Source of the DNA: Limnovirga soli
GTDB lineage: Bacteria; Bacteroidota; Bacteroidia; Chitinophagales; Chitinophagaceae
NCBI RefSeq assembly: GCF_013106755.1
Contig: NZ_WHPF01000001.1
Span: 1 to 64,000 of the forward strand
DNA: 64,000 nucleotides
Direction: 5' to 3'
A model generated the notes under the pieces. It ran no database searches and was not told the DNA's origin. It saw only the letters and a list, made by a program, of their open reading frames with translations. The position numbers and the translations under genes are program-made. Positions 1 through 13,937 of the stretch are shown one piece after another. Every line of letters starts with the position of its first letter. The first letter of the stretch is position 1.

Positions 1-33
1 TAAACTCTTTAATAACTCGTTTTGTTCTTTCAT
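1..33 (-). CDS. Possible start of a gene running off the left edge
   Basis: An ATG on the minus strand opens 11 codons (MKEQNELLKSL) that stay open to the window edge. The 21-bp repeats at 101-289 lie directly upstream of it. That arrangement would fit an istA-type transposase gene behind the multiple terminal repeats of an IS21-family element. Eleven codons are too few to identify a product, so this is only a pointer to what may lie to the left. Confidence 0.25.
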   Translation of the reverse strand, partial: MKEQNELLKSL

Positions 34-100
34 TTTATTATGCAAGTTTAGCACTTACACACTTATTTGCATAGTACCCCACACTTATTTGGATATTACC

Positions 101-289
101 GGCAATAGTGCCCATCCAGATGGCAATAGTGTCCGTCCACATGGCAATAGTGTCCATCCATATGGCAATAGTGCCCATCCACATGGCAATAGTGTCCATC
201 CACATGGCAATAGTGTCCGTCCAAATGGTAATAGTGTCTGTCCAGATGGAAATAGTGTCCGTTTACATGGCAAACCTGTCCGTTTAGAT
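101..289. repeat. Nine tandem 21-bp repeats
   Basis: Units start at 101, 122, 143, 164, 185, 206, 227, 248 and 269 with an exact 21-bp period and the theme GGCAATAGTGTCCATCCACAT. The fifth to seventh units are the most regular and the last two are degenerate. Because 21 is a multiple of 3, several frames are open across it and read as heptapeptide repeats such as GNSVHPH, but nothing suggests a real protein. Multiple internal copies of a ~20-bp repeat are characteristic of the ends of IS21-family elements, so this may be one IS end; a simple minisatellite is the alternative. Confidence 0.8.
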
Positions 290-350
290 GTTTTTTGGCC
301 CTTTTGCGTCCCAAAACGGGTATTATCACGAATTTTCAAATAACTGTGGA

Positions 351-546
351 AGCAATTAAAAGAGTTTGATGGCTGTTTTGATAATACAAGGAGACAGTTA
401 GCAAGGCTAAGACAATTATTGAATGGAATGGTAAAAATAGACGCACCATCTATTTGAAAAAATGCACCATACAAGCATTGAATATCAACGCCATAATTTT
501 TTGGGTGCTGCGATTTAGTTCGTCTATTTTTGAGTTACCTGCCATT
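351..546 (+). repeat. Long intergenic repeat, copy A (second copy at 2407-2583)
   Basis: The stretch from about 361 to 480 is closely similar to 2418-2516. Both contain a run reading CAGTTAGCAA, then GACAATT, then AATGGAATGGTAAAAA, then ATAGACGC. Both continue into the shared promoter block. A frame in both copies translates to a similar peptide ending in IFE, so the repeat may be the decayed 3' end of a gene copied with each insertion. Confidence 0.6.
500..532 (+). promoter_or_regulatory. Promoter module, copy A
   Basis: TTTG at 500-503, 21 bp, then TATTTTTG at 525-532 fits the Bacteroidota primary sigma consensus (-33 TTTG, -7 TAnnTTTG). The predicted transcription start lies about 8 bases before the ATG at 547. 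The same ~55-bp block, including the phrase TTTAGTTCG, recurs before three other genes (2536-2567, 3830-3861, 5317-5348). Confidence 0.65.
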
Positions 547-1152
547 ATGAAAAAACAGCTTATAATACTAATTATCTACTTAGGAATTCTAATGTCGACA
601 ACATTTGTTGACATACCTTATTCGAATTCCATTGTAATTGTTTTGACAGTATTGTTTTTCGGATATTTGATCTACGAATTCAATAATATTGCAAATACTA
701 AAATTGAAGGCGACCTTATCCTCAGAAGACAAACAAAAATGGTTCGACCACTTTTTATTCTCTTGGCACTTATTCCATCTGTCAGCTATTTTATCAATAA
801 TAGAATTAATTTCCTTCAAATACTATTATTCTGGTCAGTTGTTATATTTGACATTGTTATAAGCATTTTTACAAAGAGACTGAAACCAATTGGAATGGTT
901 ATTAAGGAAAAGAAGCTCATATTGAATGACTTTAGAAATACAAACAGGAATTTAAGTCAATTAAAAAGCATGAAATTGAACGGGTTGACGGATGAAATAG
1001 AAATGACCTTTGTGAATGAAAAACGACTGTATATCAATCGCAGTGAATATTTGGCTATAGACATTGAAAGTTTAATTTCAATTTGTATTGACGCAAGCCA
1101 AGAACAATTATCAATTTCAGACAACTTGAAAAATGGGAATAACGGCAGGTAA
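547..1152 (+). CDS. Hypothetical membrane protein, 201 aa
   Basis: Not recognised. The protein starts MKKQLIILIIYLG and has about four hydrophobic segments in the first 120 residues: two near the N-terminus, then two separated by a short loop containing NNRINF. A soluble C-terminal part of about 80 residues follows, with alternating hydrophobic positions. The layout, membrane anchor plus small beta-rich tail, resembles bacterial PH-like membrane proteins, but that is only a guess. The reading frame is open upstream to 454, but the ATG at 547 is preferred because the promoter -7 box at 525-532 lies between. The stop codon overlaps the first bases of the attC-like palindrome at 1152-1276. Confidence 0.7.
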   Translation: MKKQLIILIIYLGILMSTTFVDIPYSNSIVIVLTVLFFGYLIYEFNNIANTKIEGDLILRRQTKMVRPLFILLALIPSVSYFINNRINFLQILLFWSVVIFDIVISIFTKRLKPIGMVIKEKKLILNDFRNTNRNLSQLKSMKLNGLTDEIEMTFVNEKRLYINRSEYLAIDIESLISICIDASQEQLSISDNLKNGNNGR

Positions 1153-1276
1153 CAGGCGTTTGGCAAAAAAGCGGGTTCAGTGGTTAATTGAACATCCTGC
1201 TTCGTATCAAATTTTGTGCTGGGTTGAAAGTTTAGTGCTTCTAAATCCGCTTCTTCGCCAAGCGCCAAAACGCTGT
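1152..1276. repeat. attC-like imperfect palindrome
   Basis: The left arm at 1155-1174 (GGCGTTTGGC then AAAAAAGCGG) pairs with the right arm at 1247-1266 (CCGCTTCTTC then GCCAAGCGCC) with only a few mismatches, around an asymmetric ~70-base centre. The element begins at the stop codon of the upstream gene (taAC), as integron attC sites do, and its length of about 125 bp is within the attC range. A clear GTTRRRY box at the right end is missing, so it is attC-like rather than a proven attC. No integrase gene is in the window. Confidence 0.45.
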
Positions 1277-1321
1277 GCGTCACTTTAAACTAACATCTTC
1301 AGTAATTCAAAGCAACCTGGT

Positions 1322-1669
1322 TTGAGAATTCAAATTAACATATTTCACTTCATCTTGACAGTTCTCATTGTAATTACATGTGGACTAATTTCTATAAGCT
1401 ATGGTTGGATTTCGTTCGCAACTTTCACAGAGAGACCAGGTTTAAACGGAGACTTGTATTACTATTATCGCACAGACAGAATAGTTTTTGGTTTTTACAA
1501 ACTACTTATTGCGGCAGGTGCATTGTTAACAATCATCAGACTATCTTACTTCGTTTATAAAGGCAACAGACCAAAAGTGACAAAAACATTCATTCACTTT
1601 GCCATTTTACTAGCCGTGCTTATTCTTTGTGAAATTTATTTGAGTACCCGTTTTGTCGGTAAAGGTTAA
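1322..1669 (+). CDS. Small hypothetical membrane protein, 115 aa
   Basis: Not recognised. There are three hydrophobic segments: residues ~8-30 (ILTVLIVITCGLISI), ~58-75 and ~88-108. The only plausible start in frame is TTG at 1322; there is no in-frame ATG upstream of the first membrane segment. The gene lies 46 bp after the attC-like palindrome and 9 bp before the next gene, so it is probably co-transcribed with it. It could be a displaced cassette gene; nothing indicates a function. Confidence 0.5.
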   Translation: MRIQINIFHFILTVLIVITCGLISISYGWISFATFTERPGLNGDLYYYYRTDRIVFGFYKLLIAAGALLTIIRLSYFVYKGNRPKVTKTFIHFAILLAVLILCEIYLSTRFVGKG

Positions 1670-1678
1670 ACGCATGAA

Positions 1679-2377
1679 ATGAAAATAGCTGCTGCATTTG
1701 TACTTTTTTTTATTGCTTTCATGTGCTTCCGCATACTTGCGCCAGAATGGGGGCTTAGTTGTGAACTTGAAAATGAAAAAAAAGTAATAGTCGAAGAGCA
1801 GCCGCAAACAAAATCATTAAATGCTGATTCGCTATCTGATATGTTAATATTTAAAGATATAAAGGGCTTGTATGCTGAGGTTAAAGTAACTGCACAATCC
1901 ATAGATTCAATTTTCGCTACAATTATCATAATTAATAATTCAACATCTGATATTACTATATATAAGCCAGTATTTCCATATAAAAATTTGGTTGAGAATT
2001 ATTTTGATTTTATGGATTCCAATTTTCATCATTTGAATTTCTATGTTGATTCGGATAGTCAGCAAAAATATTACAGTCAAAAAAATTCACCTCCTGCTGT
2101 TATCCCTAATTTTAAAATCAAAGAAAATTTCATTATTTTAAAAGCTAATGAACAATTGAATTTTAAGCTGAATATTTCAGAGAATTATGATTTCAAAACT
2201 TTCATTGAAAAAGGTACAAAAACCTTTAATTATCATTTTTTTATTCATACTCCTTTAATTGAAAACAATGTTCATGCGTGGGAACTAGATCCATTTAGAA
2301 AAGTATACAGACCGGTATATTTGACTATTGGAGCCACGGATTCAATACAGAAAATAATTACTATTCCAGATAAATAG
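1679..2377 (+). CDS. Hypothetical exported protein, 232 aa
   Basis: Not recognised. The N-terminus (MKIAAAFVLFFIAFMCFRIL) is a signal peptide or signal anchor. The mature part is rich in Ile, Asn and Phe, with alternating beta-strand patterns and a proline-containing segment near the middle. The ATG at 1679 is used; an overlapping ATG at 1674 hits a stop at once. A curious detail is that the 20-base phrase GCATACTTGCGCCAGAATGG inside the coding region (about 1732-1751) recurs just after the stop codon at about 2399-2418, which suggests that the repeat following this gene was copied from its own 5' region or the reverse. Confidence 0.6.
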   Translation: MKIAAAFVLFFIAFMCFRILAPEWGLSCELENEKKVIVEEQPQTKSLNADSLSDMLIFKDIKGLYAEVKVTAQSIDSIFATIIIINNSTSDITIYKPVFPYKNLVENYFDFMDSNFHHLNFYVDSDSQQKYYSQKNSPPAVIPNFKIKENFIILKANEQLNFKLNISENYDFKTFIEKGTKTFNYHFFIHTPLIENNVHAWELDPFRKVYRPVYLTIGATDSIQKIITIPDK

Positions 2378-2406
2378 CTATACACCCATAATAGTTCGCA
2401 TACTTG

Positions 2407-2583
2407 CGCCAGAATGGGAATTTGACTGTTTTTTGATAGTACGAGGGAACAGTTAGCAATGCGAAGACAATTGTTAAATGGAATGGTAAAAAATAGACGC
2501 GCCATACAAGGATTGAATATCAATTCCATAATTTATTGGGTGCTGCTATTTAGTTCGGTTATTTTTGAGATGGCGGTAATTTT
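2407..2583 (+). repeat. Long intergenic repeat, copy B
   Basis: Second copy of the repeat at 351-546. It shares the AACAGTTAGCAA and AATGGAATGGTAAAAA phrases and ends in the promoter module. One frame stays open through the copy and gives a peptide containing RRQLLNGMVKN and FSSVIFE. Confidence 0.6.
2536..2567 (+). promoter_or_regulatory. Promoter module, copy B
   Basis: TTG at 2536-2538, 21 bp, then TATTTTTG at 2560-2567, with the ATG of the WG-repeat gene 16 bp further on. It matches the -33/-7 pattern of Bacteroidota. Confidence 0.6.
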
Positions 2584-3558
2584 ATGGAATACTTCAATCA
2601 AAATTTATTTCACGTAATCAAGAACGGAAAATCAGGGTTTATTAACAATAAAGGTGATGTTGTTATAGACTTTGAATTTGACGGTGCATCTTCCTTTTCC
2701 GAGGGGCTTGCAAGAATATTCGTAGAAGAAAAAGTGGGATTTATAGATACAAAAGGAAACATAGTTATTGAACCCAAGTTTGATAGTGCTTTAGGATTTT
2801 CGGAAGGCCTTTCAGTAGTTACTATTGGTGACAATCAGGGATACATAGATACAAAAGGAAACATAGCAGTAAAACCATCCTTTTATCAGGCTAATAACTT
2901 CGAAAATGGGATAGCTCTTATTAGGGAAGACATCATATCAGAGAGCAGTTTTATTGATAGGCAAGGCAACATAATTCTAAGTGGAAAAAATTTCGCAGTT
3001 TCAAAATATAGCGACGGCCTAATAAATTGTTCTGAAAATGGTAATTGGGGCCACATTAGTTTAGAAGGTAATTTTGTTATTCCTGCAATATACAAATACA
3101 CCAGGGAGTTTTCTGAAGGCAAAGCAGCGGTGTCACCGAAAAAGGACATTACCGGAAAGCCAAACAAAAAGAATTTATACGGGTTCATAAACAAACAAAA
3201 TGAAATGATAATCCCGCCAACTTTGCAAGGTTCGGACATTTTTTTTTCAGAAGGCTTGTGTGCGGTTTGGAACAATGGTTATGGATATATAGACGACATC
3301 GGAAATCTGATCATTCCTTATGACTTTGAATTAGGAGAACATTTTAATGAAGGGCTTGCTGTTTTTAAGCCTAAAGGGAAAAACAAAAAATATGGTTACA
3401 TAGATAAGGCTGGACACATTATAGTGGAACCAATATTTACTAGTGCAGACGACTTTGAAAATGGATTTGCGTCTGTGGTAACTGGCGAAAATTACAATCA
3501 ATACAAATATGGTATTATTGACAAAAAAGGGAACTACATATGGGAGCCGACAAGATAA
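2584..3558 (+). CDS. WG-repeat protein, 324 aa
   Basis: Built almost entirely of WG (KWG) beta repeats of about 35-45 residues. Each contains a pattern like G(F/Y)I(D/N)xxGxxVIxPxF followed by FSEGLA or a variant (FSEGLARI, FSEGLSVV, FSEGLCAV, FNEGLAVF, FENGFASV). About eight repeats can be counted. There is no signal peptide, so it is probably cytoplasmic. WG-repeat proteins are common in Bacteroidota and Leptospira; their role is not established, though a protein-binding scaffold is usual for such repeats. It is driven by promoter copy B and lies in the accessory array. Confidence 0.85.
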   Translation: MEYFNQNLFHVIKNGKSGFINNKGDVVIDFEFDGASSFSEGLARIFVEEKVGFIDTKGNIVIEPKFDSALGFSEGLSVVTIGDNQGYIDTKGNIAVKPSFYQANNFENGIALIREDIISESSFIDRQGNIILSGKNFAVSKYSDGLINCSENGNWGHISLEGNFVIPAIYKYTREFSEGKAAVSPKKDITGKPNKKNLYGFINKQNEMIIPPTLQGSDIFFSEGLCAVWNNGYGYIDDIGNLIIPYDFELGEHFNEGLAVFKPKGKNKKYGYIDKAGHIIVEPIFTSADDFENGFASVVTGENYNQYKYGIIDKKGNYIWEPTR

Positions 3559-3559
3559 A

Positions 3560-3627
3560 AACCACCGCCAGTCGAGTAAGCAAGGGGGATTTCGCCCCCT
3601 GCTCCTCACAGAACCGTACGTGTAAGT
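3560..3627 (-). repeat. Group II intron-like remnant, copy 1
   Basis: Read on the minus strand this contains ACGTACGGTTCTGTGAGGAG, a hairpin of a G run and a C run around GAAAT, then TTGCTTACTCGAC. This succession resembles the conserved segment flanking the reverse-transcriptase reading frame in bacterial group II introns. No reverse-transcriptase gene is present. A second copy lies at 5052-5113. Confidence 0.4.
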
Positions 3628-3693
3628 TATGGATATAATGTATTACAACATCGAGAAACAATTTCCCTCCTTAAAAGCTGCCTGGCATTCCCC

Positions 3694-3750
3694 ACTGCAA
3701 AAGTGTGCGACGCAAGGGAAGTTTAATAGTTATTTTTTTGCCGCGCCAAT
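3694..3750 (+). repeat. GTGCGACGCAAG element, copy 1 (plus)
   Basis: Core AAGTGTGCGACGCAAG at 3701-3716. Its left part is slightly altered (GCAAAAG instead of GTACAAG) and its right end reads TTGCCGCGCC. It lies between the WG-repeat gene and the next gene and shares extended flanks with copy 2 (AAAAGCTGC upstream, GTTTAATAGTTATT downstream). Confidence 0.75.
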
Positions 3751-3829
3751 ATTTTAATAATAAAATTAGATGCCCCGTATTTTTAAAAAAAACCTCTATT
3801 TAAGTATTTAATATCAACAATAGACTTTT

Positions 3830-3861
3830 TTTGGTATGGCTATTTAGTTCGTTTATTTTTG
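3830..3861 (+). promoter_or_regulatory. Promoter module, copy C
   Basis: TTTG at 3830-3833, 20 bp, then TATTTTTG at 3854-3861. The next ATG in frame with a signal peptide is at 3894. Nearly identical over ~55 bp to copy D. Confidence 0.65.
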
Positions 3862-3893
3862 AGTTAGCGGCAACTCTATTTGAACACCCGAAT

Positions 3894-5057
3894 ATGAATA
3901 AAATAATTTTACTTTTCACAGGACTTTTTTTCTTTAGTAGTATATCATTTGGACAGAATTCAAATGACAAGATAATGTTTGTGATTGACTCTATTCCAGT
4001 TATAGAGGACCCCGAAGAAGGGAATGACATTTTGCAAACCGATGTTGCTGACATCACAGTAATAAAAAATAAAGACACATTAATGCTGTTAGGTTATGGG
4101 CAATTTGATGGAGTAACTTTTTTGTTTACAAAAGAATATCGCAATAGACCCGAAAGCATAAAACAAATTCCTTCCTCAAAACAAATGGAAAAGAAAAATG
4201 GAGCTTTTCTTTTTCGTAGCAATCTATACAGCGGACAATTTATTGACTATTACTATAGTGGTAGAAAACAAGGAGAAGGTACATTTCTCAATGGCAAGCT
4301 AAATGGACATCGCAAAATGTACTATCAGAATGGGAAATTAGCAATGGAGAGAGATTACAAAGACGGAATTGAAAATGGTTTTGAAAATGAATATTATGAA
4401 GATGGTTCATTGAAACAAAAAGGAGAATTTGTAAATGGAAAAGAAGAAGGAATTTGGGAATCATTTTATCCTAATGGGCAAGTCAAATTACGGAGCAAAT
4501 ACAAATCAGGTGAAGTTTTTGACACTGCCACAAAGTATTATTCTACGGGAAAAATAAAAGAAACTGTTTTTATCAAAAATGGGAAAGTAATTCCTGACCC
4601 AAGTCTTGTGAAAATAAATCAGTTAATGACCAATAGTAACGAAAGTAATAAAGTAGGAGACACAAAAGCAGCAATAAAATATTGTTCCAGAGTTATTGAG
4701 TTAGACAGCACATATGCTGCAGCTTATTTTTCAAGAGGAACTATAAAATTGAATGATTTTCAATTTGACGAAGCCATTGCAGATTTTGACAAAGCATTAA
4801 AGTTTGAGCCGTTAATGGAATTTGCATTAGCTAATAGAGCATTTGCCCGAATAAGAAAATATCAGTTTGCAAGCAGTAGAACATTGTCTAAAAATAGCGA
4901 GGTTACAGTTTTAGCATCAAAGGATAAAGTGCCAATTCCGCAAGACGAACAAGAAAAAATTTGTAATGACTTGCAAAAGGCAGTGTTCTTAGGTGACAAA
5001 TCAAAAATGATAACAGAGGCTTTATCTGACTACTGCCAGACAAAGAGCAGCCGCTAG
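3894..5057 (+). CDS. Exported MORN/YwqK-repeat and TPR protein, 387 aa
   Basis: The start at 3894 gives a good signal peptide (MNKIILLFTGLFFFSSISFG) with Gln at +1. Residues ~110-230 hold MORN_2/YwqK-type repeats (GKLNGHRKMYYQNGKL, YEDGSLKQKGEFVNGKEEG, YPNGQVKLRSKYKSG). Residues ~250-320 form TPR-like helices (YAAAYFSRGTIKLNDFQFDE, IADFDKALKFEP). The frame also reads upstream through the promoter block to 3831, but that extension would lie before the transcription start. The domain mix is common in Bacteroidota lipoproteins and periplasmic proteins of unknown role. The MORN_2 family has been called antitoxin-like, but no toxin partner is visible here. Confidence 0.75.
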   Translation: MNKIILLFTGLFFFSSISFGQNSNDKIMFVIDSIPVIEDPEEGNDILQTDVADITVIKNKDTLMLLGYGQFDGVTFLFTKEYRNRPESIKQIPSSKQMEKKNGAFLFRSNLYSGQFIDYYYSGRKQGEGTFLNGKLNGHRKMYYQNGKLAMERDYKDGIENGFENEYYEDGSLKQKGEFVNGKEEGIWESFYPNGQVKLRSKYKSGEVFDTATKYYSTGKIKETVFIKNGKVIPDPSLVKINQLMTNSNESNKVGDTKAAIKYCSRVIELDSTYAAAYFSRGTIKLNDFQFDEAIADFDKALKFEPLMEFALANRAFARIRKYQFASSRTLSKNSEVTVLASKDKVPIPQDEQEKICNDLQKAVFLGDKSKMITEALSDYCQTKSSR

Positions 5058-5113
5058 TTGAGTAAGCAAGGAGGATTTCGCCCCGCAGCTCCTCACAGAA
5101 CCGTACGTTTAAC
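5052..5113 (-). repeat. Group II intron-like remnant, copy 2
   Basis: Second copy of the 3560-3627 segment (GAGTAAGCAAGG then GGATTTCGCCCC then CTCCTCACAGAACCGTACGT on the plus strand). It begins at the stop codon of the upstream gene. Similarity with copy 1 continues rightwards through TATAATGTATTACAACAT into GTGCGACGCAAG copy 2. Confidence 0.4.
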
Positions 5114-5182
5114 ATAAGGATATAATGTATTACAACATAGAAAAACAATTTCCTTCCTTAAAAGCTGCATAGCATTCCCACT

Positions 5183-5234
5183 GTACAAGTGTGCGACGCA
5201 AGTGAAGTTTAATAGTTATTATTTAGTCTGGCCA
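5183..5234 (+). repeat. GTGCGACGCAAG element, copy 2 (plus)
   Basis: GTACAAGTGTGCGACGCAAG at 5183-5202, followed by TGAAGTTTAATAG and ending in CTGGCCAAT. It sits between the MORN/TPR gene and the DUF2695 gene. Confidence 0.8.
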
Positions 5235-5316
5235 ATATTTGAATGGGAAAAACATAGAATGCCCTCTATTTAAAAAAGTGCACCATTAAATCATGAAATA
5301 TCAACAAGAGACTTTT

Positions 5317-5348
5317 TTTGGTATGGCTATTTAGTTCGTCTATTTTTG
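5317..5348 (+). promoter_or_regulatory. Promoter module, copy D
   Basis: TTTG at 5317-5320, 20 bp, then TATTTTTG at 5341-5348. The ATG of the DUF2695 gene is at 5388, giving a leader of about 32 bases. Confidence 0.65.
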
Positions 5349-5387
5349 AGTTGAATGCAAGCTTAATTGAACATCTCAATACTTAAC

Positions 5388-5699
5388 ATGCCTAATAAAA
5401 GCGAAAAAGAAAGACGTAAGCAAATTACTAATGATCTTCGTAAAAAAGCAAGAGAAGAGTTTGAAGCAAGTTTGCCCATTAGCCGTGAATTATTTCAAAA
5501 TTTATTCGATCACTTAGACAAAGAACTAATTGACAATAGTTGCGATCATACATTAAAATTGACAAGTCTTTTTTTGGAATCCAAAAGAGTCGAGAATATC
5601 AATAATGTAAAGGAATGGTTGAGGCAAAATAGCGGATATTGTGATTGCGAAGTTCTTGCTAACGTTGAAGAAAAGTTTGGTGAAAATCCCATCTTATAA
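5388..5699 (+). CDS. DUF2695 family protein, 103 aa
   Basis: Recognised by the family's C-terminal signature: CDHTLKLTSLFLE around residue 50, then VKEWLRQNSGYCDCEVLANV near the end. The N-terminus is charged and helical (KSEKERRKQ). DUF2695 proteins are small and cytoplasmic and have no known function; the Cys and His residues could bind a metal. The frame extends to a TTG at 5367, but the ATG at 5388 is preferred. It is a single-gene unit behind promoter copy D. Confidence 0.8.
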   Translation: MPNKSEKERRKQITNDLRKKAREEFEASLPISRELFQNLFDHLDKELIDNSCDHTLKLTSLFLESKRVENINNVKEWLRQNSGYCDCEVLANVEEKFGENPIL

Positions 5700-5819
5700 A
5701 AAAATCAATCAGAATCGATGCTCAAGAAATTCGGCCCTAAAATCAAAATTCTCTAATAATCCAGCAGGCTTCGTATAAAAGTCTGTGTTGAAAATCGCCA
5801 CCTTAGTCCAGTCGAAAAA

Positions 5820-5835
5820 AGTAAGCAGCAATTAT
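5820..5835 (+). repeat. Left arm of a 16-bp inverted repeat around the next gene
   Basis: AGTAAGCAGCAATTAT here pairs with ATAACTGCTGCTTACT at 6691-6706 (15 of 16 match). The two arms enclose exactly one gene, with the left arm 13 bp before its ATG and the right arm overlapping or touching the stop codon. Confidence 0.7.
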
Positions 5836-5848
5836 AAACTCAACCAAC

Positions 5849-6694
5849 ATGCCTACATTAGTCCATCTTGCTGACGAAAGAGAATCCTCAAACATTAAAA
5901 CCAATGGAATAAAAATCGGGAAACGAATGAAAGGCGTTTTCTGTATGCCTGTAATGCAAAATTTCTATGTTTCCCATCAATGGTTGCGAGAATTAAAGCG
6001 TTTTGGAGGTAATACATTTGTCGGTGTTTATTTTAAGGTTGACAGTTCAGAAAAAGTATTTGCTGGAAAATTCAACGAACCACATAGGCATATCGAATTG
6101 GGTGAAGCCATCAAAGAAATATTATCCATAGAAGACCCATTGGGCTATGAATTAATTATTTGCAGGAAAATAGAGGCGAAGGAAATCCACAAGATAAGAA
6201 GTCTGCCCCAAACCATTGGATGGCGATATAAACCAGGTTCCAATGGAAAAAAGCCTTGCGGATGTGATTATTGCCAAAGTGGCAAAATAAAAGCAAAAAG
6301 TATTAGGGAAAAATATGAACCAAAGGAAAAGGATTTGCAATATGATGAAATCCTTTCCAAGCTACAAACTGAAAAAAATGAAAGTGATTTAGAGGTTTTA
6401 CTTTGGGCAATCCGAAAGAAGAAAAGGAGTGCCGACCCAATGGAACTTTTGTTTTTAATGGATATGAAATCAATTACCATTGACCGTGAGTTGGCAATAT
6501 CATTAAAAAAATTTAGGCATAAAAATACAAAGACAATATTGTTAAAGCTGCTTGATAAAAGTGACGACAATACTAGAGAATATGCGGCAGACAGTTTTTT
6601 GCAACTCTATGGACAAGAAGCGGAAAAAATGTTTATAGACACCAAAGACTTTGCAATTCAAACCGCACTGACAGATTGGAGAGCAAAACAATAA
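5849..6694 (+). CDS. Hypothetical protein with Cys cluster and HEAT-like tail, 281 aa
   Basis: Not firmly recognised. Residues 1-125 begin TLVHLADERESSNIKTNGI and contain GVFCMPVMQNFYVSHQWL. A His near the start followed by a helix and a Gly-Ile is reminiscent of the ADP-ribosyltransferase/KptA-like fold, but the catalytic set cannot be confirmed. A CGCDYC cluster follows at about residue 138, suggesting a bound metal. The last ~120 residues are helical pairs resembling HEAT repeats (TKTILLKLLDKSDDNTREYA, ADSFLQLYG). There is no signal peptide. The gene is precisely bracketed by the 16-bp inverted repeat (5820-5835 and 6691-6706), which suggests that it moved as a unit. Confidence 0.55.
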   Translation: MPTLVHLADERESSNIKTNGIKIGKRMKGVFCMPVMQNFYVSHQWLRELKRFGGNTFVGVYFKVDSSEKVFAGKFNEPHRHIELGEAIKEILSIEDPLGYELIICRKIEAKEIHKIRSLPQTIGWRYKPGSNGKKPCGCDYCQSGKIKAKSIREKYEPKEKDLQYDEILSKLQTEKNESDLEVLLWAIRKKKRSADPMELLFLMDMKSITIDRELAISLKKFRHKNTKTILLKLLDKSDDNTREYAADSFLQLYGQEAEKMFIDTKDFAIQTALTDWRAKQ

Positions 6695-6706
6695 CTGCTG
6701 CTTACT
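6691..6706 (-). repeat. Right arm of the 16-bp inverted repeat
   Basis: ATAACTGCTGCTTACT is the reverse complement of the arm at 5820-5835 with one mismatch. It includes the stop codon of the enclosed gene. Confidence 0.7.
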
Positions 6707-6830
6707 GTCTATTCCTGCAATAGCTAAACAAACATCTTCTTAAAATAGTCGTCAACCAAGCGTTTATTCCCCTTTGATTCATTACAAATAAAATAATTTA
6801 TTTCCCTAAAAACTGCCTAGTATTCCCCAC

Positions 6831-6883
6831 CGTACAAGTGTGCGACGCAAGTAAAGCCCAATAGTGTTGCTTTTGCCGGGCCC
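6831..6883 (+). repeat. GTGCGACGCAAG element, copy 3 (plus)
   Basis: A full-length example: GTACAAGTGTGCGACGCAAG, then TAAAGCCCAATAG, then TTTTGCCGGGCC. It lies at the 3' end of the first FG-GAP lipoprotein gene (minus strand) and pairs, facing inward, with the copy at 10225-10275. Confidence 0.9.
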
Positions 6884-6901
6884 AAACATTGGCTTTGGCT
6901 G

Positions 6902-9900
6902 CTATTTTTTTGCTTGCAGTTGCTGTATAATTTGTACTGGTTGGTTATTACGGGCCAATATATAGGTGGCATTTTTGCCCAGTTGTAAGGGCAATATATG
7001 GCGTACCTGCCCCTGTATACTTAATCCGTTTATAGGGCTACATTCAAAATTGCCCGCCCCCATGTTGATAAGAATGGTGCCATAGCTGGCATCGTAGCGG
7101 CCCATTTCTATATTGTTTTCGTAAAAATTACCGGTGAGCAGTATATCGGGCAGCCCATCGTTATTGGCATTGATGATAACAGCATCTTTTACCGGACTTA
7201 ACTGTGCCTGCCAGGGCAATGCTTTTGGGGTAAAATGTAGTTTACCATCGTTTATTAATAGGGCACTGGCAAAATAGTTGGCGGTAAATAACGTGGCATT
7301 ATTGAGTTTATCCGCCGTAAAAATTTCGGGCAGGGTGGCTTTGGCAAAATCGGCTGCATAGAGAAGCTGTTTTTTTAATACAGGCATTTGCTTTTGCAGC
7401 TCGCCAATACTGGCAAAGGGATATTCGCGGTGCTGCAGGTAATAGGTGAGCACCTGTTCTTTTTTACCATTGCCATCAAAGTCGTTATAGTACATGCGCA
7501 CTGGCTCTTCCTCGCTGGCTTTCAGCCGGCTGTTTAGGCCAAGGTTGCCCGCTATCAGGTCTATATCTCCATCGTTATCTATATCGCAGGGCAACAGGTT
7601 GTTCCACCAGCCATTTTGGGTGGTTAGGGGCAGTTTGGTAAAGCTGCCTTTGTTATTGATAAATGCAGTGATGGGGCCCCATTCAAGGGATAAAAGCAGG
7701 TCGCTATCGCCATCCTTATCTATATCGCACCAATAAGCATTGGTTACAAAGCCAATGGTGGACAGGTCTTTGGCATATTTTGAAGTTACATTGGTAAACT
7801 TACCGGCACCATTGTTCTGCAATAGATAAGAAGCAGGTATTTGTCCATAGGCATTAGGTACGCATCTGCCACCAATAAATAAATCGGTAAACCCATCTTT
7901 ATTAAAATCGCAGGGTATTACGCAGGAGGCAGTGGTATACAAGGTATCAAATGCGCCGGCCAATTTGGTAAAATGGGCTTTGCCATCGTTTAAGTAAACC
8001 CGGGGCGTATTGTGCTCGTCGTGGCCAAAAAACTCATTGCCGCCACTGGCTATCACCAGATCAATTTGGCCATCATTATTTACATCAGTAAAGCAGGCAC
8101 TTACATCTTCATAAACACTATCGGCAGCTAATACCGGTTGCTGGCTTTGGGTAAATGTGCCATTGGCATTTTGAATAAACAAGGCATTTTTAACCCGTTT
8201 GGCAGCGCCTATAAATACATCTTCTAATCCATCCTTGTTAATATCACCAACCGCCAATGCCGGGCCCTCGGTGGAGAACATGCGGGGGATTAACTGTTCG
8301 CGGTTAAACTCGTTAAATGGGTTTTCCTGATGGGTATATTGCAAACCGGTTGCAGCCGTAATATCAGCCATGGGAATGGTGGTATTGGGCTGGTGTTGCT
8401 GTAAGGCGGTATAGTTAAAATCAGGTAGCCCCTTTTGATAGCTAAGGTGAACAATTCCTGTATCGGAAGCGGTTAAGTGCTGGCAGGTATTATCGGGCCA
8501 TATCAATATCAGGGAATCGGGTTTGGTATTATTTAAGCCAATATGCAAAGGAATTTCCATACTGGATAAAAAGCCATGCACCGGGTAATTTTCATAAGTT
8601 CTTATACTGTTACCGGTATACAATAAAAGTTTGGCGCCTATTGCATTAATATTTGCGGCAGGGCCTTTTAAATGTAACTGCAAAAAATGTTGGGCACTAC
8701 TGCCAGCAGTTTTGTTTTCGTACAATACCGCATCGGCGTCAATATTATTTACTACAATATCCAGATCGCCATCGTTATCAAAATCTGCATATACGGCGCC
8801 ATTGGAATAGCTGGGTGCATTATCAGCAATGGCATCCTGCCTGTCAATAAATTGCAGGTTGCCCTTATTACTAAAAAACTTATTGGGCAATTTAATCTGT
8901 GGGAACTTTTCTATCAGCGCCATATCTTTTTGTCCCTTGGTTTGATTGGCCATATTTTGCTGCACCACATCGTTAGATACATAGTTGGCGTAATCAATAT
9001 CGTTCATACGTTTGGGTATGCCATTGCTTACAAAAAGGTCTTTTAATCCATCATTATCAAAGTCTAGCCAAAGCGGTGCCCAGCTCCAGTCTGTTGCCGC
9101 CACACCGGCATATAAACCCAGTTCGCTAAAATGGTTATTGCCCTGGTTAAATTGCAGGTTATTACGGGTGTATTGAAAGCTATAGCCGTAGCCTATTTTC
9201 TCATAGAACAAATCGTAATTATCCTCGCCAAGGGAGCGCTTTAAAATGGAAGGATCTTCGGGCAGCATATCCATGGAGATAATTTCGGGATAGGCATCAT
9301 TGTTTATATCGGCTATATCTACCCCCATAGAAAACTGGCTGCTATGCATCATTTCCTCGCCCGATACTTCTTTAAATTTGCCATCATGCTGGTTTAGATA
9401 GAGATAATCATTCTCATGAAAATCGTTGCCAATATACATATCGGGCCAGCCATCCAGGTTTATATCGGCCACACAAACACCCAGGCCATAGCCAATGGCA
9501 GAACTGTTGATGCCGCAGGCTTTGGTAACATCTGTAAAATGATTGCCCTCATTTTTAAAAAGCCTGTCGCCTGCCAGTGGATGATAGGTTCCCAGAAATA
9601 AAGAACGTTCCGCAAAAGTGCCATTCTGGTGTACGGAATGGTTTAAGAGAAACATATCCAGATCCCCATCCATATCATAATCTAAAAAAGCAGCTTGTGT
9701 ACTAAAGCCCGAAAATGCAAGGCCCCAGGTAGCCGTTTCATCGCTATAAAATGGAACGCCGTTTTTGTCAATGCCCTTACAAATAAGTAATTGGTTATTG
9801 GCTTTTAGCACTTCGTAATTGCCCACACGGGAAATATAAAAATCCAGCAGGCCATCGTTATTAATATCCACAACAGATACGCCGGTACTCCAGCCACCAT

Positions 9901-10348
9901 CCTGTAGAAGTTTGGCCGCGGCGGTAACATCTTTGAAATGCAGGTTACCGGTATTTAAAAATATTTTATTGGTGCTTTGGTTGGCGGCAAAAAACAAATC
10001 AATCAGGCCATCGTTATTAAAATCGCCGGCGGCCACACCTGCGCCATTGTAGAAATACATATAATCCAGCACATTAAATACCGAATCGGGGTGCAGGGTA
10101 TTATTAAAATCAAGACCTGTACGGCTTTTATCCAGCACTTCGAAAATTGGGGGCGTTGCGGTTGGGTTTTTTCCGCATGAGTTAAGTGCAATGGCAACAA
10201 TAATAACAACAAATAATCTGTTGAGCCCGGCTGTAAATGTTGCAGGAAGCTTTACTTGCGTCGCACACTTGTGCTGCAACAATTGTATGCAGCTTATAAC
10301 TGAAGTGTGTATTGAATACAGCATATTTTTATAGTTATACTTACCCAT
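6902..10348 (-). CDS. CRTAC1/ASPIC-UnbV FG-GAP repeat lipoprotein (second of two)
   Basis: A large surface or periplasmic protein of about 1090-1148 aa. It has many FG-GAP/VCBS beta-propeller units with calcium-binding DxNxDGxxD loops (GDFNNDGLIDLFF, VDINNDGLLDFY, CDIDKDGDSDLLL), a central ASPIC/UnbV domain (IGAKLLLYTGN and DSLILIWPDN) and more FG-GAP units behind it. In Bacteroidota such proteins are routinely encoded next to SusC/SusD and are thought to help bind or process the substrate. A lipobox (IALNSC) sits near residue 58. The ATG at 10348 requires translation through a copy of the GTGCGACGCAAG element (peptide HKCATQVKL) before the true signal sequence, so the real start may be a non-ATG codon near 10215-10235. 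It lies last in the SusCD transcription order. Confidence 0.85.
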   Translation of the reverse strand: MGKYNYKNMLYSIHTSVISCIQLLQHKCATQVKLPATFTAGLNRLFVVIIVAIALNSCGKNPTATPPIFEVLDKSRTGLDFNNTLHPDSVFNVLDYMYFYNGAGVAAGDFNNDGLIDLFFAANQSTNKIFLNTGNLHFKDVTAAAKLLQDGGWSTGVSVVDINNDGLLDFYISRVGNYEVLKANNQLLICKGIDKNGVPFYSDETATWGLAFSGFSTQAAFLDYDMDGDLDMFLLNHSVHQNGTFAERSLFLGTYHPLAGDRLFKNEGNHFTDVTKACGINSSAIGYGLGVCVADINLDGWPDMYIGNDFHENDYLYLNQHDGKFKEVSGEEMMHSSQFSMGVDIADINNDAYPEIISMDMLPEDPSILKRSLGEDNYDLFYEKIGYGYSFQYTRNNLQFNQGNNHFSELGLYAGVAATDWSWAPLWLDFDNDGLKDLFVSNGIPKRMNDIDYANYVSNDVVQQNMANQTKGQKDMALIEKFPQIKLPNKFFSNKGNLQFIDRQDAIADNAPSYSNGAVYADFDNDGDLDIVVNNIDADAVLYENKTAGSSAQHFLQLHLKGPAANINAIGAKLLLYTGNSIRTYENYPVHGFLSSMEIPLHIGLNNTKPDSLILIWPDNTCQHLTASDTGIVHLSYQKGLPDFNYTALQQHQPNTTIPMADITAATGLQYTHQENPFNEFNREQLIPRMFSTEGPALAVGDINKDGLEDVFIGAAKRVKNALFIQNANGTFTQSQQPVLAADSVYEDVSACFTDVNNDGQIDLVIASGGNEFFGHDEHNTPRVYLNDGKAHFTKLAGAFDTLYTTASCVIPCDFNKDGFTDLFIGGRCVPNAYGQIPASYLLQNNGAGKFTNVTSKYAKDLSTIGFVTNAYWCDIDKDGDSDLLLSLEWGPITAFINNKGSFTKLPLTTQNGWWNNLLPCDIDNDGDIDLIAGNLGLNSRLKASEEEPVRMYYNDFDGNGKKEQVLTYYLQHREYPFASIGELQKQMPVLKKQLLYAADFAKATLPEIFTADKLNNATLFTANYFASALLINDGKLHFTPKALPWQAQLSPVKDAVIINANNDGLPDILLTGNFYENNIEMGRYDASYGTILINMGAGNFECSPINGLSIQGQVRHILPLQLGKNATYILARNNQPVQIIQQLQAKK
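10225..10275 (-). repeat. GTGCGACGCAAG element, copy 4 (minus)
   Basis: On the minus strand: GCACAAGTGTGCGACGCAAG, then TAAAGC, ending AGCCGGGC. It overlaps the 5' coding region or leader of the gene ending at 6902 and forms a back-to-back pair with copy 5, about 140 bp away. Confidence 0.9.
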
Positions 10349-10412
10349 GTAATGCTTAGTTGGAGCGATGTTTTATTTTGTACTACAGCTTACTGTTGCG
10401 CCGGGCTATGCA

Positions 10413-10462
10413 GTACAAGTGTGCGACGCAAGCATGTTTCATATCTATTCTTTTGCCCGGCT
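10413..10462 (+). repeat. GTGCGACGCAAG element, copy 5 (plus)
   Basis: GTACAAGTGTGCGACGCAAG, then CATGTTTCATATC, then TTTTGCCCGGCT. An additional GCGCCGGGCT lies 13 bp before it at about 10398. It is at the 3' end of the gene 10486-13932. Confidence 0.85.
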
Positions 10463-10485
10463 AAAAAGGCATTTATACATTTCGC

Positions 10486-13400
10486 TTATTTACCTGCCGC
10501 CGTAAATGGGCGCTTGTTAAAGGCATACAAAACAGGCATTTCGCCATTTTGCAGCATAAGCAAATACTTACCGTTCTTATTTTTTACCGGTTGAATATCA
10601 CGTACCTGACCACGCAATTCAATACCGCTTACCGCATTGGGCACATAGCTAAACTGCGCCTTACCATTGTTAATGAGCACATGGGTAAAGCTGGCATCGA
10701 GCCGGCCAAATTGCGGCTGAAAACAAAAATCGTTACCGCCCATAATCAAATCGGGAATACCATCGCTATTAACATCGGTGCACAAAATGGCGTTTACTGA
10801 TGAGAACTGCACATTTGCCGGCAAAGGTTGTATTTCAAATTGGCCATTGCCCATATTGATGGCAATACAACTGGCATCATCATTAAATAATTTTACTGTG
10901 GCATTTTTTAACTGATCTGTTGTAAACAAATCCTGCATGGATTTTTTTGCATAATCCTCGTGTTTCAGGTTTTCCTTTTTTAGGTAAGGCAACTGATCGG
11001 TAATATCGCGTTTCATTAAAATGGTAGCATCTTTTCCGTTTACTGTTCTGGTAACAATCTTTTCCAGTTCACCGTTATTATCAAAGTCTTTTAAAAATAA
11101 TTTTGCGGGGGCTGTGGCGGAAGGTCTCAAGTAAAAATTTTCACCAATATTTCCCAGTACAAGGTCTTGCTTACCATCGCCATTTAAATCGGCGGCAGCA
11201 ATGGCCTGCCACCAGCCGCTTCTATCGTTGAGGTTGGATTTCACTTCTTCAAAATGATCTTTTGCAAAGGTGAAAATACGTGTAGGCATCCATTGGCCAG
11301 TAATAATCAATTCTTTGCGGGCATCGCCGGTAACATCTGCAAATACAGCTGCCGATACCATGCCAATAGTGGCTATATCAGGATTTTTAGTTTTAGCCAT
11401 ATCGGTAAAGCGGCCGGTACCATCGTTTAAATAAATAAAACTGGAAGGAGAAACCCCATAGAGTTGTGGCACACTTTTACTACCTGCAAAAAGGTCTATA
11501 TCGCCATCGCCATCAATATCATTGGCAATTACAACGGAAGTGTTCATGCCGCTATTGGGGATGGCTTTGGTATCGACGGCAAAATTGCCTTTACCATCAT
11601 TTTTATACAAACGGCTTTGCATTAATCGGCTGCCAGCGGGTGCATTGTTGCCACCGGCACCCGCAAAAATATCCAGATCGCCATCCTTATCGCAATCAAA
11701 TAACAATACGGCTACGTCTTCAAAATCGGCGAACTGCTTAAATACAGATTGTTCACTTTTTAAAAAGCTACCATTGGCCTGTTGCAGGTATAATTGTGAT
11801 GCCTGATTAGCTGCACCGGCGATAAAAATGTCTTCCAGACCATCGCCGTTTACATCTCCGGTGCTGGCTTTGGGGCCCTGACGGGAAAGCATTTCCATAA
11901 GGCCAGGTTCGTAATAAAAATCTATATAATCGTCTTCGGTATGCTTTTCAAAATTAGCAGGTACCGCAGTAAAAATTGTTGCAGGAATAACTGTTTTAGG
12001 TGCAACCAACGGAAAGGAATTATTTGCCCAGCTGATGGTATACACAGAATCGGTTGCCGGATGTGTTATGGTGGTTTGGGTTAAATCGGGCCAAATAATT
12101 ACCAGAGAATCGGCGGCAGTATTATCTCCTGTTCCAAAAATAATTTTATAATCTACAGATGATTGAAAGCCGTGATTGGGAATTACTTCGCGGCTTTGAA
12201 TTTGGGAGCCTTTGTACAGTTCAATTTTGCTGCCTATTGCAAAAGTATTATTGCCTTTACCTTTTAATTGCACACCCAGGTAATGGTGTTTATTATTTTC
12301 CCTGCTTTGATTTCTATATACAAATGCCGGTTCGTTTTCGTTGTTTACTACCAGGTCTAAATCGCCATCATTATCCAAATCTCCATAGGCGGCACCATTG
12401 GAAAGAGAGGGTTGAGAGAAACCCCAGTTGTTGCCTTCATCAGAAAAAGTTAGGTTGCCATTATTTCTAAAAGCCTTATTAGGTATGGGTTGCGATGGCA
12501 TTTTGTTTATAATATCATCCACCGCTTCCTTTTTACCAGTCATTACCATCTTTTGTACCACATCATCGGCAAAAAAATCAATAAAATCCTGGTTGGTTAC
12601 ATCATGGTTAATACCATTGCATACATAAATATCATTTAAGCCATCATTATCCGCATCAAACATAAGTGCACCCCAACTCCAGTCAGATGCATTTACGCCA
12701 CTATAATTGGCTATTTCCAAAAATTTTCCATGCTGGTTGTTTAGTTGCAAAGTGTTTTGCATATACTGATAGTAGAATCCGGATTTTTCTTTTAATCTTT
12801 CTACATCAATATTATCAAAGGAAGAAGTTGTTTTTAAGCGATACTCATCGCTGGGTAGCATATCGGTTGTAAAAATATCGGGGAAACCATCGTTGTTAAT
12901 ATCGCCCATATCGGCACCCATAGATGCCAGACTCATATGGCCAATCCAGTTCTCCCCTTCTTCTTTAAAAGTGCCGTTTTGTTGATTTACATATACGTAA
13001 TCCTTTTCAAAAAAATCGTTTGACACATAGAGGTCGGGATAATGATCACCATTAATATCTCCCACGGTAATACCCAGTCCAAAACCAATCAAACTACCAT
13101 AAATACCGGCCTGTTCACTAACATCCGTAAAATGACCATTATCATTACGCAAAAGATGATCACCCCCGCCTTTTACAAAATCTGCTACCGGCCAGTTTTC
13201 GGCTCTCAGGTTTCGCTTATTGGCATAATTCAAGGTGTTAACAGGTATAAAACTATTGTTTAAAATATAACAGTCCAGATCGCCATCCAAATCATAATCA
13301 AAAAAGGCCGCATGGGTAGTATATCCACCCGGGTTGGTTAAACCATACTGTGCTGCAGAATCAGTAAAGCCAAGTTGATGATTATTAATAAACAACTGGC

Positions 13401-13926
13401 ATTTGGGTAATTTACCATTTACATAACCTGCATTACAAACAAATATATCCAGCCAGCCATCATGGTTAATATCTACCATTACAACCCCGGTGCTCCAGTC
13501 TTGCTTATTGGTAAACCCAGCCTTTGCTGAAATATCGTCAAACTTAAAATTGCCTTTGTTTAAAAACAATTTATTACTGCCCATATTGGCTGTAAAAAAA
13601 ACGTCGGCCAGTCCATCGTTATTAATATCGCCTATGGCTGCGCCGCCACCATTATAAAAATTACGGTAACTAAAAATATTAAAGTCGTTAGTGTTATGTA
13701 CTTCGTTGGTAAAATTGATACCGCTATTCTGTTGTAATTCAAAAAGAGCGGGGGGTTGTTCCTCATTTTTACAGGCTGTAAACAGGAAAAAAGGTAACAT
13801 AAGAATAAAGCAAATGCGAAGCGTTGTTGACCCGGCTGTAAGGTAATTATTCAGCTTTACTTGCGTCGCACACTTGAACAGCAACAAATAGCTGAGCAAT
13901 AAAAAAAACGATACAGTTAAAAACAT
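10486..13926 (-). CDS. CRTAC1/ASPIC-UnbV FG-GAP repeat lipoprotein (first of two)
   Basis: Same architecture and almost the same length (about 1146 aa) as the next gene, and clearly its paralogue: FG-GAP/VCBS units with DxDxDGDLD loops (FDYDLDGDLDCYI, GDLDNDGDLDLVV), a central ASPIC/UnbV region (IGSKIELYKGSQIQSREV), then more FG-GAP units. A lipobox FLFTAC lies near residue 53. The ATG at 13926 follows a TAACTTTG -7-like box at 13930-13937 by only a few bases, so this ATG is at or before the transcription start. The true start is probably downstream, beyond the repeat copy that reads KCATQVKL. Located between SusD and the second paralogue, it is part of the uptake locus; a strong terminator after SusD suggests its own promoter. 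Confidence 0.85.
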   Translation of the reverse strand: MFLTVSFFLLLSYLLLFKCATQVKLNNYLTAGSTTLRICFILMLPFFLFTACKNEEQPPALFELQQNSGINFTNEVHNTNDFNIFSYRNFYNGGGAAIGDINNDGLADVFFTANMGSNKLFLNKGNFKFDDISAKAGFTNKQDWSTGVVMVDINHDGWLDIFVCNAGYVNGKLPKCQLFINNHQLGFTDSAAQYGLTNPGGYTTHAAFFDYDLDGDLDCYILNNSFIPVNTLNYANKRNLRAENWPVADFVKGGGDHLLRNDNGHFTDVSEQAGIYGSLIGFGLGITVGDINGDHYPDLYVSNDFFEKDYVYVNQQNGTFKEEGENWIGHMSLASMGADMGDINNDGFPDIFTTDMLPSDEYRLKTTSSFDNIDVERLKEKSGFYYQYMQNTLQLNNQHGKFLEIANYSGVNASDWSWGALMFDADNDGLNDIYVCNGINHDVTNQDFIDFFADDVVQKMVMTGKKEAVDDIINKMPSQPIPNKAFRNNGNLTFSDEGNNWGFSQPSLSNGAAYGDLDNDGDLDLVVNNENEPAFVYRNQSRENNKHHYLGVQLKGKGNNTFAIGSKIELYKGSQIQSREVIPNHGFQSSVDYKIIFGTGDNTAADSLVIIWPDLTQTTITHPATDSVYTISWANNSFPLVAPKTVIPATIFTAVPANFEKHTEDDYIDFYYEPGLMEMLSRQGPKASTGDVNGDGLEDIFIAGAANQASQLYLQQANGSFLKSEQSVFKQFADFEDVAVLLFDCDKDGDLDIFAGAGGNNAPAGSRLMQSRLYKNDGKGNFAVDTKAIPNSGMNTSVVIANDIDGDGDIDLFAGSKSVPQLYGVSPSSFIYLNDGTGRFTDMAKTKNPDIATIGMVSAAVFADVTGDARKELIITGQWMPTRIFTFAKDHFEEVKSNLNDRSGWWQAIAAADLNGDGKQDLVLGNIGENFYLRPSATAPAKLFLKDFDNNGELEKIVTRTVNGKDATILMKRDITDQLPYLKKENLKHEDYAKKSMQDLFTTDQLKNATVKLFNDDASCIAINMGNGQFEIQPLPANVQFSSVNAILCTDVNSDGIPDLIMGGNDFCFQPQFGRLDASFTHVLINNGKAQFSYVPNAVSGIELRGQVRDIQPVKNKNGKYLLMLQNGEMPVLYAFNKRPFTAAGK
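13830..13877 (-). repeat. GTGCGACGCAAG element, copy 6 (minus)
   Basis: On the minus strand: TTCAAGTGTGCGACGCAAGT, then AAAGC, ending AGCCGGGT. It lies within the first 100 bases of the gene ending at 10486 and faces copy 5 across that gene. Confidence 0.85.
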
Positions 13927-13929
13927 ATT

Positions 13930-13937
13930 CAAAGTTA
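13930..13937 (-). promoter_or_regulatory. Possible -7 box for the first FG-GAP lipoprotein gene
   Basis: TAACTTTG on the minus strand fits TAnnTTTG. A TTTG lies about 16 bp upstream, shorter than the usual spacing. If it is used, transcription begins near 13924 and the upstream start codons are not translated. The rest of the gap 13938-14246 shows only the degenerate element at about 14150-14195. Confidence 0.4.

Follow-up and report, generated by a model that had tools for sequence, protein, structure and literature searches.

The window analysed here, the first 64 kb of contig C1 (NZ_WHPF01000001.1) of the Limnovirga soli genome (G000; 5.48 Mb in 77 contigs), opens with four copies of a repeated block, each standing ahead of a different gene. 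This arrangement is very probably a gene-capture array of the integron type, whose joints resemble attI and carry promoter motifs. As part of this explanation, and with the same high confidence, the block would form the right half of an integron-type recombination site, and about 6.9 kb at the start of the window would be a piece of a gene-cassette array. The integron itself is of a known kind. What is new is the branch of integrase, which lacks the IntI-specific insertion I2, and the proposed spread of attI.

A repeated block at probable cassette boundaries

The 23-nt cores of the block (window positions 512–534, 2547–2569, 3841–3863 and 5328–5350) sit within a longer repeat of 120 nt, also present in four copies. 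All four near-identical blocks that a first-pass annotation of this DNA had placed between 477 and 5352 are thus present, as are TTTG and, 20–21 nt on, TATTTTTG; the genes behind them, too, are as that annotation had described them, encoding in order a protein without a Pfam family, a WG-repeat protein, a protein with MORN_2 and TPR, and a DUF2695 protein. Across the genome, TATTTAGTTCGNNTATTTTTGAG occurs in 30 exact copies and, with up to three mismatches, in 76 (0 for the reversed pattern, used as a control), clustered as same-strand arrays such as those at C19 1.3–7.2 kb, C23 184–195 kb and C6 0.7–6.8 kb. An initial pattern search with a gap of 5–30 nt had given no match; the actual gap is 2 nt. 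Among 28 other relatives searched, two congeners hold one exact copy each and 26 hold none. The genes behind the 76 copies differ, so the block is neither confined to this locus nor always followed by the same genes, the two patterns that the annotation had set against its own proposal.

The boundary between block and cassette was examined in 72 blocks from selected stretches of this genome, a set that allows up to five mismatches and may therefore include a few false members. Cassettes begin at the block end, as TATTTTTGAG|TTRNNNG: the bases following TATTTTTGAG are TT in 60, TTR in 57 and TTRNNNG in 44 of the 72. An open reading frame of at least 60 aa follows in 68/72, with a median start 25.5 nt beyond the cut. 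The cargo is varied. Among 20 cassette proteins scanned, from 54 of at least 150 aa, nine have no Pfam match and 11 match different families (DMP19, alpha/beta hydrolase, Kelch, TPR, DUF7638, DinB, SUKH, NADAR, metallo-beta-lactamase fold, methyltransferase and, marginally above the cut-off, Imm26). Unrelated genes are thus arrayed in one direction, as in integrons, and the proposal of a gene-capture site combining a conserved promoter with variable cargo stands as an integron-type cassette array, with the promoter as a sequence motif.

In such an array, each cassette would start with TTRNNNG and terminate in a site with an R'' box complementary to those starting bases. For 47 cassettes of this genome, the mean best R''/R' pairing score is 7.28, against 6.99 for permuted partners (standard deviation 0.075), a value equalled by 1 of 5,000 permutations. 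This scoring, with wobble pairs and permutations, replaced a naive 11-mer search in which 12/47 cassettes had a box with at most two mismatches, as against 9.5% of swaps.

The Bacteroidota −33/−7 promoter consensus is TTTG, about 20 nt, and TAnnTTTG. The motif TTTG-N19–21-TAnnTTTG is present in 59 of the 72 blocks, where 3.6 would be expected with a shuffled upstream stretch, an expectation that leaves descent uncontrolled. Each joint is accordingly annotated here with a predicted −33/−7 promoter of Bacteroidota type; its activity is a prediction from the motif.

An IntI-like integrase and intact arrays in relatives

The reference integrase (P0001; 398 aa, from congener G001) comprises SAM-like and Phage_integrase domains and an extra N-terminal domain of about 100 residues. 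The catalytic R, K, H, R, H and Y are invariant across 38 integrases of this group. Against TIGR02249, the NCBI integron-integrase model, P0001 scores 183 bits (cut-off 265), with the match in two pieces, and the roughly 40 extra residues of IntI1 that form I2 are missing, by alignment, in P0001 and in the tet(X3)-adjacent and Chryseobacterium proteins. In an AlphaFold model (predicted local distance difference test 85.6, predicted template modelling score 0.53), DSSP assigns no extra helix between H281–293 and H314–328. The best Foldseek match is IntI 2a3v; with VIA-align, the best matches are XerA (Z 23.2, root mean squared deviation 14.8) and IntI (Z 20.6 and 3.8), model residues 112–374 aligning to residues 2–304 of the 2a3v chain (259 residues). 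A tree of 22 rows places the integrase beside IntI1 and apart from its own XerC/XerD (99/99), with long branches, a midpoint root and a single IntI. Sequence and model thus describe an IntI-like integrase without the I2 insertion, and of a widespread kind. TIGR02249 has matches at E ≤ 1e-30 in 32 of 294 family genomes and exceeds its cut-off in only one (G183); three such matches (L046, L050 and L065) were rejected as candidates, being grouped with their own XerC/XerD in the tree. The G183 locus (L044, on G183:C24) encodes an IntI that scores 287 bits; its reading frame is interrupted by one stop, and it has a stretch resembling I2. Both kinds of integrase therefore occur in the family. P0001 has no match among phages at E ≤ 1e-50.

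The integrase C terminus has a match (E ≤ 1e-15) in 75 of 394 family genomes, G000 included. Intact systems were studied in the best 80 of at least 480 loci, of which 54 carry titles naming Chitinophagaceae or genera that we take to belong to it, one Cytophagales and one ‘bacterium’, the others naming Bacteroidota or orders within it. In the intact layout, an integrase of about 400 aa is followed by attI and then by cassettes with ordinary attC sites, all in the same direction, so that intact integrases and arrays co-occur. With 22 loci too short and 22 without a core by the rule applied, 36 loci were usable: the core G|TTRNNNG lies 3' of the integrase in 36 of the 58 loci with enough sequence, and in 14 of the 36 it stands 104–115 nt past the integrase stop. 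It is often preceded by TATATTTA or TAAATTTA, which is not independent evidence of a promoter because the core rule required a −7-like motif.

Across these 36 loci of relatives, R'' pairing gives a z-score of 7.0 (0/10,000 permutations), and at least 10 of 11 positions pair in 16/36 loci, as against 43 of 1,260 swaps; an earlier, partly overlapping set (11/33 loci) gave z 5.6. Behind the R'' boxes lies an attC sequence common to these loci, with complementary arms; the L''/L' pairing reaches z 7.5 (0/10,000) for the 19 of 23 sites that have a recognisable end. Ends of attC that are complementary in this way, R''/R' in G000 and relatives and L''/L' in relatives, are a property of integrons. A sequence model built from 17 attC sites yields 136 matches in the 80 loci: 135 lie downstream, in 275 kb and all on the integrase strand, and one lies in 802 kb upstream. 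Outside the loci used to build the model, 58/58 matches, in 21 loci, fit this layout. A match is found in 38 of the 58 loci having at least 700 bp downstream, and single arrays hold 12 (L126) or at least 14 (L198). In 17 relatives, the region spanning integrase stop and core has no direct repeat further along the array; only L110 and L121 show repeats, and these lie beyond the core. attI and attC therefore differ there, unlike in G000. For a 231-bp stretch of L025 that extends up to a joint but excludes its 23-nt core, a plasmid search gave no distant match.

The origin of the joints and alternative explanations

Contig C9 carries a broken tyrosine-integrase end (integron-integrase model positions 248–315, with one TAG), and the block lies directly 3' of it. 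Over about 170 nt, the long joints align to this integrase end and the sequence behind it, with identities mostly of 77–83%; the longest contain the 3'-terminal part of a tyrosine integrase gene and about 105 nt of its attI. Many long joints retain variants of KPPLVNSISPFDAFWKKGNIKW followed by the stop, and in 14 of the 20 copies that reach the integrase end (C9 included) the terminal stop lies 103–108 nt 5' of the cut. With the source copy left out, 66 of the 72 blocks match the C9 stretch and five do not. The matched lengths, which are local-alignment ends and hence approximate, are mostly stepwise (35–44, 72–74, 86–100, 108–123 and 158–170 nt), with 19 blocks at up to 50 nt, two at 51–70, 18 at 71–100, eight at 101–135, 18 at 136–180 and one longer. 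In these 66 blocks, the cassette end reads as a truncated attI up to the crossover; from sequence, the joints look attI-derived, making the units preceding them look like ‘delta-attI’ cassettes.

The I2-less, IntI-like integrase would cleave TATTTTTGAG|TTRNNNG at the G|TT step, probably with attC folded as a single strand in vivo, and many cassette ends in G000 would be truncated copies of the integrase 3' end and attI, which presumably spread to them. The −33/−7 promoter of a delta-attI would end at the crossover, so that the downstream cassette would be transcribed from its first bases. Ordinary sites are also found: the attC model has 19 matches in the G000 stretches, all on the array strand, seven near full length and the rest shortened, and ordinary and attI-type ends therefore coexist. 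A search of G000 for the integrase at E ≤ 1e-15 returned the broken C-terminal copy at C9:61424–61612 only, and several arrays reach contig ends. Because this copy alone was found, the arrays of G000 are probably frozen; the exceptions would be an integrase supplied in trans or one that the 77-contig assembly missed.

Several observations weigh against this account. TT stands at the cut in only the 60 blocks counted above; R''/R' pairing in G000 is moderate, 13/47 cassettes reaching 8/9 as against 10% of swaps; and common descent is not wholly controlled for by the shuffles and permutations. Among the 20 long copies, six deviate through a premature stop, a frameshift or a stop at another position. 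The attC left half lies directly ahead of only 4/72 joints, which leaves the replacement of attC by attI unexplained, and hairpin z-scores are modest (−2.4 and −1.8). Among relatives, 22 of the 58 long-enough loci have no core by the rule, 20/58 have no attC-model match, and 10.5 of 11 paired positions are reached by 0/36 own pairs, as against 7/1,260 swaps. In the window itself, a possible R'' box of cassette 3 (3561–3571, 8/11) is outscored by a rival place (8.5), that of cassette 4 (5047–5057, 8.5/11) ties with one other place, and pairing gave no convincing R'' box for cassette 5.

The blocks could be ordinary, homogeneous attC right halves, like the Vibrio cholerae repeats, resembling attI through shared integrase binding and not as copies of it: AGAAGAAC and GTTCGTCT can, by eye, pair as L''/L' in short joints, and a review (PMC8618304) notes that sequence conservation tends to hold among attC sites of chromosomal integrons. 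We consider this unlikely, since the long copies continue unbroken into integrase coding sequence, most with the stop where expected, and attC of another kind is present in the same genome. A dispersed promoter-bearing repeat (of the miniature inverted-repeat transposable element or repetitive extragenic palindrome type) or local tandem duplication, without cassette recombination, would account for the many copies and for two cassettes duplicated along with their block (95.5% identity over 827 bp and 96.8% over 747 bp). It would not by itself account for the preferred G|TTRNNNG boundary, the cassette-specific pairing with the 3' box, the different genes behind the blocks or the intact integrase–attI–attC arrays of relatives, and is improbable.

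The first-pass annotation had also read a peptide ending FSSxIFE across the block and suggested that the block may derive from a captured gene's 3' end. An open frame does run through some copies (for example, window 454–1152), but both variable bases fall in a single codon, at its first and second positions, where they alter the amino acid, and conservation is not that of the peptide. In those array copies where integrase sequence survives, the peptide would fall past the integrase stop, within the last 23 of the roughly 105 nt from stop to cut. That the block is such a coding end is scarcely credible. The broader idea came close to the mark, except that the gene end in the long copies is that of the system's own integrase, with attI.

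The window array, tet(X3) and wider context

Coordinates of the cassette array and associated features in the window
Feature	Position	Strand	Remarks
Joint 1, attI-like right end	433..534	+	Matches 98 nt of the C9 stretch (integrase 3' end and attI); −33/−7 promoter motif
Joint 1 cut, predicted	after 534	+	GAG|TTACCTGCC
Cassette 1 gene	547..1152	+	201 aa from ATG; no Pfam family; ‘unknown membrane protein’ of the first-pass annotation
Cassette 1 attC, ordinary-looking	1142..1272	+	R'' box 1142–1152; right end 1272 placed by eye
Cassette 2 or several remnants	1273..2491	+	Open reading frames 1322–1669 and 1679–2377; no joint of its own ahead; no Pfam family
Joint 2, attI-like right end	2492..2569	+	74 nt matched; promoter motif; AT instead of TT next
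Cassette 3 gene, WG-repeat protein	2584..3558	+	Pfam
Remnant like group II intron 3' end	3565..3692	-	At R'' of cassette 3; second copy 5051–5179
Joint 3, attI-like right end	3759..3863	+	100 nt matched; promoter motif
Cassette 4 gene, MORN_2 + TPR protein	3894..5057	+	Pfam
Joint 4, attI-like right end	5234..5350	+	114 nt matched; promoter motif
Cassette 5 gene, DUF2695 protein	5367..5699	+	Pfam

The attC of cassette 1 looks ordinary: its R'' box pairs with the first bases of the cassette at 10/11 positions, its bottom strand can form a hairpin with a stem of about 20 bp (z −2.41; a second attC gives −1.78), and window 1137–1272 is 91% identical to a stretch 3' of the intact integrase in relative locus L134. 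Its match to the attC model is weak (E 0.0057).

The group II intron-like remnants lie on the reverse strand at cassette R'' boxes, and similar pieces stand ahead of short joints in other arrays; the copy at 5051–5179 scores 20 bits against Rfam Intron_gpII (cut-off 40, E 0.52), a weak match, and window 1–12000 has no Rfam match at the gathering cut-off. Group II introns have reportedly been seen in association with integrons. Further repeats include 21-bp units resembling GGCAATAGTGTCCRTCCANAT, head to tail at 80–310 immediately ahead of joint 1; a 92-nt repeat with GTGCGACGCAAG in three copies (3656–3747, 5142–5233 and 6791–6882), similar pieces of which precede joints elsewhere; and CGCATACTTGCGCCAGAATGGG near 1730 and 2398. 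Beyond the array, on the minus strand, 6902–13932 encodes two adjacent 1148-aa proteins with repeated DINNDG-like motifs, presumably of FG-GAP/VCBS type.

On Acinetobacter plasmids, tet(X3) too is flanked by elements of this kind: a truncated integrase of the group, a core resembling attI and the left half of an attC. In L207:3971-6085 (NZ_CP041297.1), tet(X3) lies 189 bp 3' of the truncated integrase (55.7% identity to P0001 residues 179–390), behind the attI-like core TTATGTGCC, and directly 3' of it stands the left half of this group's attC (E 3e-7). Its R'' pairing is 7/11, below other places (8.5). The layout is common to L206, L207 and L208, the three records examined among 25 from plasmids that match at E ≤ 1e-60, and suggests, at the sequence level, that tet(X) was once a cassette of such an integron.

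With integrons, a class that takes in sedentary chromosomal integrons and clusters of attC sites lacking integron-integrases (CALIN), the present systems share a tyrosine integrase and attI, cassettes that mostly carry one gene and stand in arrays, R''-L''-L'-R' sites, a G|TT cut and complementary ends; they differ in an integrase without I2, with an N-terminal extra domain and below the NCBI integron-integrase cut-off. For Bacteroidetes, the IntegronFinder 2.0 study (PMC9024848) mentions cassette-less integrases as the only earlier finds and one complete integron, in Salinibacter ruber, and the review PMC8618304 lists Bacteroidota among phyla with integrons; no recognisable description of integrons in Chitinophagaceae was found in open-licence PMC literature, judged by titles and abstract starts. 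In delta-attI cassettes of class 1 and 2 integrons (PMC12901181), a truncated attI likewise replaces the attC end in a few discrete lengths, with eight types of 14–244 nt and 96 such cassettes among 1,685 class 1 and 14 among 57 class 2 integrons. Here, by contrast, a single genome has dozens; these contain a promoter motif and, when long, remnants of integrase coding sequence. Treponema chromosomal integrons (PMC3607928) likewise have the integrase transcribed toward attI, in the direction of the cassettes; they belong to another phylum, and the likeness described here is one of layout. Gene-less, promoter-bearing cassettes of Vibrio superintegrons (PMC11014356) also provide internal promoters expressing downstream cassettes, but on separate cassettes, whereas here the promoter motif lies within the recombination site.

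On balance, we lean towards a wider interpretation: a large, overlooked Bacteroidota branch of integrons would use an I2-less integrase, either because I2 is dispensable for folded attC or because these are living pre-I2 relatives; G000 would have spread attI and its promoter to cassette ends, so that cassettes could be expressed anywhere in the array; and tet(X) would have left Bacteroidota from such a platform. The tet(X3) link provides a concrete hypothesis on where a resistance gene of clinical importance came from. I2 has been seen as the innovation that made an integron integrase from a Xer-like recombinase (PMC7790495) and its presence has been used for recognising intI genes (PMC2426708); an I2-less integrase tied to attC arrays makes the innovation idea directly testable. 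Promoter-bearing joints, in turn, may offer one answer to how distant cassettes are expressed and where the sites at cassette ends come from.

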